Source: Kribbella antiqua
GTDB lineage: Bacteria; Actinomycetota; Actinomycetes; Propionibacteriales; Kribbellaceae
Length of the DNA stretch: 64,000 nucleotides
NCBI RefSeq assembly: GCF_004345665.1
Contig: NZ_SLWR01000013.1
Location: 62,001-126,000, forward strand
Direction of reading: 5' to 3'
Under the pieces are notes generated by a model. The model had not been told where the DNA came from and did no database searches. It worked only from the letters and a program-made list of their open reading frames with translations. Made by a program: the position numbers and the translations under genes. How positions within the stretch are numbered: position 1 is the first letter of the stretch; the number at the start of each line of letters is the position of its first letter. Below, one piece after another: positions 21,279 to 35,474 of the stretch.

Positions 21279-21664
21279 GGCGCTACTCCCTTTCCTCACA
21301 CCACCCAGGTGGGCGGCTTCACAACTTCTACGAACACGACCAGCCCGATCCGACACCTGCATCGAAACGGGTCCCATCATCGGGCCGGCCGGAGCGACGC
21401 CGGCGCGAGTGTGACCGGCGGGCGTCCATAGACCCGCGGTGGCCGCGCCGCGTCACGCCGTCGGTCACGAAGTCCGGCTGCCGTACTAGGCTCGACACCG
21501 GTGCGAGCCGGACGACTTCCACTCCCGCGCACCCTTTTACACACCGCAATCAGCGCGAAAGGACGATGAGAGATGAGAACGCCTACGCCAACCCCAGCCG
21601 CTCAATCCCTTAAATACAAGACCTCTTGCGCTCCGCTGGCAATCGATGATCAAACTGGGCTGGG

Positions 21665-21701
21665 AATCAGCGGGTTCGGGGTTCGAGTCCCTGTCTGCGC
21701 A
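21665..21701 (+). other. 3' half of a tRNA-Lys(CUU) gene, candidate attachment site
   Basis: From A21665 the sequence follows tRNA-Lys from just after the anticodon: AATCAGC (3' anticodon stem), GGGTTC variable loop, T-arm CGGGG-TTCGAGT-CCCTG, then 3' acceptor strand TCTGCGC and discriminator A. The 5' half (D-arm, acceptor GCGCAGA) is absent; upstream is unrelated. A break exactly in the anticodon loop is where tyrosine-recombinase elements commonly cross over. The intact tRNA gene should lie beyond the left end of the window if this is the displaced chromosomal 3' end. Confidence 0.75.
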
Positions 21702-21706
21702 CATCA

Positions 21707-21739
21707 GCCCCAGGTCACGCGAGTGTCCTGGGCTTCTTT
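21707..21739 (+). terminator. rho-independent terminator of the tRNA-Lys remnant
   Basis: Stem GCCCCAGGTCAC / GTGTCCTGGGC with a GCGA loop (one bulge, one mismatch) followed by TTCTTT. It starts 6 nt after the tRNA 3' end, the normal position for an actinobacterial tRNA terminator. Confidence 0.7.
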
Positions 21740-22029
21740 GTGCCCGTCGCACACCACTTACGCACCACTTTCCCGGATCTCCGCAGCGAACTGATCCGTC
21801 GGCCTCGCCTCCACCTCCTCCCTCCGAAGACCTGGATGGCGTCGGCAGCCTTCATCCGATCGTGACTGTGCGTCACATCACATCGGTTCGCATCGTTGCC
21901 GACGTCTCGGCTTCCCCACGCCGACACCCCTTGAGCGGCCAACCGTCGTACCAGTGCTCGGACCGCTTCGCGGATCGCCAGGCGCCGGTCGGCCGCCTCG
22001 GTCAGGTGGTACATGGAGCCGGCCATCGG

Positions 22030-28074: not shown

Positions 28075-28213
28075 TATCGCGCTCCTGGCCCCCGACGATG
28101 CTCAGCTCTAGACCGAGCCCGGTTGGCTTCAAAGATGCCCTCGGCGGATTCCGCGACCCCACCAACGTACGACGTTCCCTCCGGGAAGCCCTCGCCCGGT
28201 CGGCAGCACCGCC

Positions 28214-28280
28214 CGCCGCGACCTAGGCGAAGCCCTCGGCTGGCCCCAGAACAAACTCGCCCTCGTCGAAACCGGCGGGT
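28214..28280 (+). pseudogene. XRE-type helix-turn-helix scrap
   Basis: Plus strand: RRDLGEALGWPQNKLALVET, the helix-turn-helix core of XRE regulators (usual form LGWSQSKLSRIE). No start or remaining domain. Confidence 0.35.
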
Positions 28281-33273: not shown

Positions 33274-33439
33274 GAAGGTCCTTGCAGTGGTCGTTGTGCT
33301 GGCTCCACTCGACCCTACGCAGCCGCCGCCCGCGATCGGAGGGCCATTCGGAGGCGGTTTCGATGGGCCACCTAGGCGGGAGTGGGCCCATGATCGTAGG
33401 CCAGCCCGGCCGTACTCAGCGGCTTGCGCGACCTCGCGG

Positions 33440-34729
33440 TCAGGACAGGATGAAGTAGCGGAGCCAGAGGTATGGGGCTGCGACGAGGATCGTGATCGCG
33501 GTGATCACGACGCCCTTGCGGGTGAAGTCCCAGAAGCTGATCGGGTTGCCGGCGCGGAGGGCGATGCCGATGACGACGACGTTGGCGCTGGCGCCGATCG
33601 CGGTGGCGTTGCCGCCGAAGTCCGCGCCCGCGGCGAGTGCCCACCACAAGGCCTGCGCGTGGCTGGGGTCGGAGACGTTCTTGGCGAGTTCGAGGACGAC
33701 CGGGCTCATCGTGGCGACGTACGGGATGTTGTCGACGATGCCGGACAGGACCGCCGACACGGTCAGGATGAGCATCACCGCGAGCAGCGGCTTGCCCTCC
33801 GTCGCCTTGCCGACCTGGTCGGCGAGGTCACTGATCACCCCGGTCTTCACCAGCGCACCGACCATGATGAACAAGCCGGCGAAGAACAGCAGGGTCTGCC
33901 ACTCGACGCTGCCCATGTAGTCCTTGGTCGGTACGCCGGAGGTCAGCACCAGCAGGCCGGCCCCGAGCAGCGCCACCACCGACGGCTCGACGTGGAACAC
34001 CGCGTGGCCGACGAACCCGGTGAAAACGAGGAGCAGTACGGCGCCGGACTTGAGCAGCAGCCGAGTGTCCTGGATCGCCTCGCGCTCGTTCAGCCGCAGC
34101 ACGTTGTCCACCCGGTCCGGGTCGGCGGTGAACGAGCCCTTGAACAGCCAGGGCAGTACGAGCGTGAACACGATCAGCTCGATCACGACCAGCGGTGTCA
34201 TGTGCGCCAGGAAGTCGTTGAAGGTGAGGCCGGACCGGCTGGCGATGATGATGTTCGGCGGATCACCGATCAGGGTGGCGGCGCCGCCGATGTTCGAGGC
34301 CATCACCTCGGCGATCAGGAACGGCACCGGGTCGATCCCGAGCCGGTCGCAGACCAGCAGCGTGACCGGTGCGATCAGCAGCACGGTGGTGACGTTGTCG
34401 AGGAAGGCCGACGCGGTCGCGGTGATCAGCGTGAGCAGGATCATCACCCGCAACGGCGACCCCTTGGCTCGCTTGGCCGCCCAGATCGCGACGTACTCGA
34501 AGACGCCGGTACGGCGGAGCACGCCGACGATGATCATCATCCCGAGCAGCAGGAAGACGACGTTCCAGTCGATGCCGGTATCCGGGGAGTAGAACGCGTG
34601 CTCGGAGTCGGTGACGCCGAGGGCGAGAAGGACGGCTGCACCACCCAGGGCTGCCAGCAGCTTGTGGGTCCACTCGGTCGCGATCAGGACATACGCAACG
34701 ACAAAGACCACGACGGCGACGACGGTCAC
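33440..34729 (-). CDS. ArsB/NhaD-family anion or Na+/H+ transporter
   Basis: 429 aa, about eleven to twelve membrane helices. Two halves each carry the family signature: [16 protein letters not shown] with [16 protein letters not shown] in the first, and [17 protein letters not shown] with [17 protein letters not shown] in the second. This is the ion-transporter superfamily that includes NhaD, ArsB and P-protein; the substrate is unresolved (Na+, arsenite or organic anion). It starts 19 bp after the CBS-domain gene at 34749, so the CBS protein probably gates or regulates it. Confidence 0.88.
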
Positions 34730-34748
34730 GTCATCACCCGGCCGTCAC

Positions 34749-35180
34749 TCAGTGCGGTGCGACCACCAGCTCCAGGAGCCGGGACGCGGTGATCGCGCCC
34801 ACGATCTCCTTGTCCTTCACGACAGCAACGAGGGGGCATCGCAACCGGGCCATGATCGCGGCCACCTCGAGGACTGTGTCGTCGTGATTCACCACCGGGA
34901 GCTCGAGCGGCTCCGACGGCAGCAGTTTGCGGACGGTCACGCCGGAGAGCTTGTCTGCCACCTGGTCGGCCAGCGACTCGTCGATCACCCGGGCCAGCGA
35001 CGGATCGTCCTGCACGTAGCTCGGTACCAGGAACCGGACCACCTGCGACGCCGGCAGCACCGAGTGAGGTTTCCCCTTCTCGTCGACCACAATCAGCCCC
35101 GGCAGTCGCCGCGAAGCCAGCAACTCGACCGCCTCGCGTGCATCCGTGTCCAGGTTGACCACCGGGTAGTCCTCGGCCAT
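34749..35180 (-). CDS. CBS-domain protein
   Basis: 143 aa, two CBS domains: about 5-50 (YPVVNLDTDAREAVELLASR then LPGLIVVD) and 80-140 (ELPVVNHDDTVLEVAAIMAR, then VGAITASRLLELV). ATG 35180 chosen; GTG 35195 gives five more residues with equally poor ribosome site. Followed closely by the ArsB/NhaD transporter, so it may sense adenine nucleotides for that carrier. Cytoplasmic. Confidence 0.82.
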   Translation of the reverse strand: MAEDYPVVNLDTDAREAVELLASRRLPGLIVVDEKGKPHSVLPASQVVRFLVPSYVQDDPSLARVIDESLADQVADKLSGVTVRKLLPSEPLELPVVNHDDTVLEVAAIMARLRCPLVAVVKDKEIVGAITASRLLELVVAPH

Positions 35181-35474
35181 CTGCTGTCCGTGCACACCTG
35201 CACGATACGCCGGTCAAACGAGGCTTGGGCAATGTCGCAGGGCCATTACCGTGGCCGTGTGCTGCCGCCAGCGTCATGCCGCCTCCGAGGATCGTCGACC
35301 AGCCCGCACCCCGGCTGGAGGCGGGCACTGCCGACCAGGCTTCCCGGCACACCGGCCCCAAGCCTCTCCTATCCGGCGGTGCCGGCGCAAACGATCAGGA
35401 ACGGCGAGTCTGCCGGGCGCCGAAGCCATTGCCGTCAGCAACAGTCCGGCGTGCTCGCGACTCCGGCCGGTGCA

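Follow-up and report, generated by a model that had tools for sequence, protein, structure and literature searches.

Does the 3' half of a tRNA-Lys gene, standing with a terminator of its own in the Kribbella antiqua genome, mark the edge between inserted DNA and the chromosome, or a boundary of some other kind? The fragment lies in the window, by which we mean the whole 64-kb stretch of DNA that was analysed (C13:62001-126000, in an 8.1 Mb draft genome of 28 contigs, G000). At its centre are two features:

21665 to 21701, + strand: core, tRNA-Lys(CUU) positions 37-73, identified by comparison with the intact gene (35/37 bases identical)
21705 to 21739, + strand: element-borne terminator hairpin after the tRNA 3' end (fold z = -3.85; almost every tRNA or fragment site is followed by a like hairpin)

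The two mismatches were T for G at tRNA positions 66 and 68, on the 3' strand of the acceptor stem, and the match is thus not exact, as the first-pass annotation had it. Two other claims made there, a missing 5' half and a proper terminator, were borne out: just 8 of 36 bases upstream of the fragment agreed with the gene, and the hairpin had a folding energy of -20.2 kcal/mol, which none of the shuffled sequences equalled. When the fragment and terminator were compared with the whole 8.1 Mb genome, the sole other match was the intact tRNA-Lys(CUU) gene (E = 2.1e-14), a value that puts chance resemblance out of the question. Neither ARAGORN nor Rfam called a tRNA within the 64-kb window. Taken as a scar left at the attachment site of tRNA-Lys(CUU)-targeting elements, the fragment is supported.

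The site was then surveyed in 37 other Kribbella genomes, all of which gave tRNA-Lys(CUU) matches (37/37); sequence checks divided the sites into 21 intact tRNAs and 24 fragments, the window included. Fragments of the same kind were present in at least 18 of the 37 genomes, some of which had two, and in a comparison of 24 fragment sites, 20 were free of mismatches over positions 39-73. Wherever a complete genome was examined, the fragments had the orientation of the intact tRNA and followed it at distances of 14 to ~290 kb downstream. They were often clustered. Fragments were located at +17.7 kb (G029) and +17.4 kb (G025), and pairs at +17.7 and +32.5 kb (G018), +191 and +214 kb (G020) and ~+275 and ~+288 kb (G002). 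Two fragment sites each downstream of tRNA-Lys, as in G002, G018, G020 and G021, correspond to several elements of the same specificity in series. When relatives were examined for an empty site, none had a clean conserved right flank, the DNA downstream being variable in all. By eye, a 13 kb island in G002 (L105, G002:C2:2780675-2791693) encodes a large SMC-like protein resembling defence proteins of the Wadjet type, together with an AbiEii-like nucleotidyltransferase. At another locus (L098, G029:4898955-4901129), the integrase frame runs, close to its end, into a LysR-like regulator, a fusion that has lost the catalytic tyrosine region.

Most fragments in the genus are flanked by the same two conserved arms, which are also readable in the window:

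21527 to 21568, + strand: left (distal, P) arm with the arm-type repeat GCACC-CTTTTACACACC, a conserved block in most fragment sites of the genus
21748 to 21771, + strand: right (P') arm repeat CGCACACCACTTACGCACCACTTT, conserved 3' of intact tRNAs and of integrase-preceding fragments
21862 to 21876, + strand: palindrome GTGACTGTGCGTCAC in the int upstream region, a candidate operator, from comparison with the int loci of relatives

The conserved block of the left arm reads GCACCTCTTTACGCACC-TCAATCAGCGCGAGAGGATGG in most Kribbella fragment sites. The left flank (21527-21650) was conserved among fragment loci only, not upstream of intact tRNAs, and the right flank, up to ~21955, at fragments and intact tRNAs alike. 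In many fragments the right arm leads to a codirectional tyrosine-integrase ORF within ~300 bp. The GTGACTGTGCGTCAC palindrome stands ~107 bp ahead of the int start in tRNA-Lys(CUU) elements; it was present in 18 of 24 fragment sites and occurred a single time in the 221 kb contig C13. The integrase-side arm and the int-upstream palindrome of the window together occupy 21740-21955. A reading of this right flank as the C-terminus of a convergent integrase was dropped, since alignment showed the upstream region of a codirectional one. Similar repeats (GCACC..TTTAC(G/A)CACC) were found in both window arms, as expected of arm-type binding sites, the putative role that we infer for them. Since the left flank is fragment-specific and the right flank leads to an integrase in relatives, the window site is laid out as distal arm, core and integrase arm, the plan of an attP or of a boundary where two elements are stacked.

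The arms also bear on a simpler origin, namely a tRNA pseudogene produced by ordinary gene duplication, or an error of assembly. A 3' half alone, in a draft assembly of 28 contigs, would suit either; conserved recombinase arms on both sides, a pattern repeated across the genus and decay by two substitutions make such an origin extremely improbable.

The DNA to the right of the scar contributed two further features:

28083 to 28276, + strand: integrase relic, family residues ~280-368 (tblastn E = 2.6e-9; HMM E = 6.8e-8 in a six-frame search of the window)
33438 to 35396, strand not given: ArsB/CitMHS-type transporter gene and its neighbour (Pfam CitMHS/ArsB; 83% nucleotide identity to G037)

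The relic lies 6.1 kb right of the scar, on the same strand; it is frameshifted, keeps part of a nested XRE domain and has lost int codons ~1-280, and no integrase ORF stands directly beside the scar. An integrase remnant therefore exists in a window that had been described as having no integrase. The counterpart of the transporter segment in G037, another Kribbella genome, is found 48.5 kb downstream of tRNA-Lys. Both arms, the relic at +6.1 kb and this homology to the G037 zone indicate that the right side, too, is island DNA. The earlier reasoning that the terminator side should be the chromosome is not supported, on the same grounds (integrase arm, palindrome, relic and G037 zone DNA), and the terminator is no marker of chromosome because the attachment site of every element has a tRNA 3' half and terminator of its own. 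No far attachment site could be found for the older element on the right.

On the left, blocks of C13:4.9-41 kb aligned at 73-92% identity with the first 27 kb that follow the intact tRNA-Lys in G037, from ~446 bases after the tRNA onward, and in G030 some of the same left-side genes lie ~5 kb downstream of tRNA-Lys, behind an integrase relic. The expectation that inserted DNA would lie to the left thus agrees with the presence there of DNA that belongs to the tRNA-Lys zone in G037. The left genes of the window include a K+ transporter, a hemerythrin, an SDR and similar cargo. From L003:4919-7151 onward, genes for a sensor kinase, a response regulator, an oxidase and stress-type functions (assigned by eye) are conserved beside tRNA-Lys in G030 and G037. 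A full-length tyrosine recombinase of another type (C13:57387-58565, - strand; L005:17387-18565) lies outside the window, 25 kb left of the scar, with no adjacent tRNA. A search for an FtsK/SpoIIIE-type transfer gene (PF01580) gave no match on C13 or C17.

With both sides described, the far end (attR) of a single island, having the insert at left and the original chromosome at right, appears unlikely. The orientation of the fragment, its terminator and the G037 tRNA-Lys zone DNA at left all fit such an end; an integrase-side arm, an int-upstream palindrome and an integrase relic to the right of the core largely contradict it, as does the segment 33438-35396, which is likewise G037 zone DNA. 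Of the first-pass proposal of a far attachment site of a tRNA element, the scar accordingly stands and the edge between inserted DNA and chromosome does not, the right side being island DNA.

The sole intact tRNA-Lys(CUU) found in the genome is on a contig other than that of the scar (C17:22825-22898, - strand). The immediate upstream neighbour of tRNA-Lys in relatives is an oxidoreductase gene; here that gene is at C13:193212-194609 (- strand), without a tRNA, ~110 kb from the fragment and on the opposite strand, and on C17 the similarity upstream of the intact tRNA ends ~67 bases from it. With the tRNA on C17 and its usual 5' neighbour on the opposite strand of C13, a rearrangement must be assumed, and since the locus is broken and rearranged, the original distance from tRNA to fragment can no longer be read. 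It would come to at least 106 kb were C17 and C13 to meet at their starts. No overlap between the two starts was found; the C13 start is near an IS3-like transposase (by eye). Synteny placement of the C17 5' flank and of the glcD neighbour returned no orthologues at the chosen cut-offs (15 and 20 relatives).

The only integrase near the intact tRNA-Lys is a relic of convergent type, and no codirectional integrase stands beside the tRNA. This convergent relic (C17:21617-22051, + strand) belongs to the same broad family and is separated from the tRNA by a small ORF (C17:22193-22729). The 17.7 kb island behind tRNA-Lys in G029 is filled by a transport/catabolism operon (L097/L098, 4884198-4897991), and the same operon lies inverted beside tRNA-Lys here (C17:7357-21145), with proteins 83-98% identical.

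A rearranged locus raises the thought that an attP-bearing region, or an excised circle, was put in by homologous or IS-mediated recombination, and that the site was never an island-island boundary at tRNA-Lys. The arm-core-arm order is indeed that of an intact attP. However, tandem boundaries in relatives have the same order and on one side adjoin islands of 13-275 kb, and tRNA-Lys zone DNA is present on both sides of the window site, which leaves an insertion of this kind very unlikely.

The site is most probably an attP-like junction, now decayed, between two islands stacked in the 3' half of tRNA-Lys(CUU). This reading brings the tRNA fragment together with the two arms and the relic of the window, with the matching junctions that retain intact integrases in relatives, and with zone DNA to the left and right of the site. 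Against it stand the 6.1 kb that part arm from relic, for which it gives no account, the rearrangement that it has to assume, the lack of overlap between the C17 and C13 starts, and the failure to find either a far attachment site for the older element or a codirectional integrase beside the intact tRNA. On the mechanism proposed, the attP of each element would have the tRNA 3' half and its terminator set between a left arm and a right arm, the latter with the int promoter region. A tyrosine integrase would recombine attP with the tRNA gene, so that the tRNA is rebuilt at one end from the 3' half that the element brings, and the original 3' half, now displaced, remains at the other. A newer element entering the rebuilt tRNA would shift the older one downstream, and the resulting boundary would again run left arm, core, right arm, as the boundary in the window does. 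The left of the scar would then be the distal end of the newer island and the right the integrase end of the older, whose int gene would have lost its first half, the remainder now lying 6.1 kb off behind other DNA. We infer in this way both the order in which the islands entered and the steps of recombination, as well as a former joining of C17 and C13 near their starts.

The same arrangement as the window scar is seen at a second tRNA of this genome. A 38-base perfect copy of the 3' end of tRNA-Lys(UUU) at C12 ~188828 (+ strand; L162:1194-1231) lies ~58 kb downstream of the intact gene (C12:130791-130863), in the same orientation, with an integrase relic of the same family ~300 bp further on (C12:189135-189611).

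Intact integrases of this family, when aligned, had ~470-476 residues, with R229, K268, H416, R419 and Y452 invariant. A clean insertion of ~84 residues with an XRE-type helix-turn-helix separated the first arginine box from the HxxR box in the catalytic domain; Pfam recognised it as HTH_31 (XRE-type, 332-387), splitting the Phage_integrase domain into two halves. An AlphaFold model (mean pLDDT 78, pTM 0.57) placed a five-helix unit at the inserted region; Foldseek searches with the model matched integrases overall, with the Tn1549 and lambda integrases as the best structural matches (PDB 6emz, 1z1b), and the regulator ClgR over ~78 residues. To our knowledge, a nested XRE-type domain like that in the Kribbella family exists in neither the Tn1549 nor the lambda integrase. 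In members of the same integrase family from other actinobacteria there is no insertion, and residues 322 and 407 are joined almost directly. Most of the island integrases carry the nested domain (e.g. L133:1501-2928), a form almost confined to Kribbella; the exceptions were one Pedococcus locus that has it and two Kribbella integrases, L179 and the convergent one of G008, which lack it. A limited literature search found no account of Kribbella islands or of the nested XRE domain, and the latter may be new.

The palindrome was considered as a general trait of XRE-bearing integrases and dropped, being specific to the tRNA-Lys(CUU) group and absent from other XRE-bearing relatives. It is conceivable, if doubtful, that the XRE domain binds GTGACTGTGCGTCAC in the attP right arm, in which case the recombinase would regulate itself, with an operator at each stacked junction.

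Stacked tRNA-Lys elements are already known from Frankia, where tandem actinomycete integrative elements in tRNA-Lys, Fean5518 and Fean5534, are conjugative AICEs shown to excise (PMC3218068). The likeness is that a single actinobacterial tRNA-Lys gene holds a stack of two elements whose tyrosine integrases are related (PMC3218068); unlike the Frankia AICEs, the window site is decayed, C13 and C17 bear no FtsK/SpoIIIE-type gene, and spacing in Kribbella relatives reaches ~275 kb. Genomic islands are likewise known to accrete in tandem at a single attachment site, for example ICESt1-related elements (as cited in PMC3218068). Successive site-specific insertions there also displace older elements and leave att sites between them, whereas host, integrase family and cargo differ, and the pattern here extends to about half of the sampled Kribbella genus. 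The Kribbella site is a further, decayed case of this known kind, here traced across a genus.

Throughout a genus of soil actinobacteria, large islands have landed again and again at one tRNA-Lys gene. The nested DNA-binding domain is a testable oddity of the island integrases, through which recombination may be tied to its own regulation, and old junctions are still readable after the integrase has decayed, so that past insertions can be counted and ordered.
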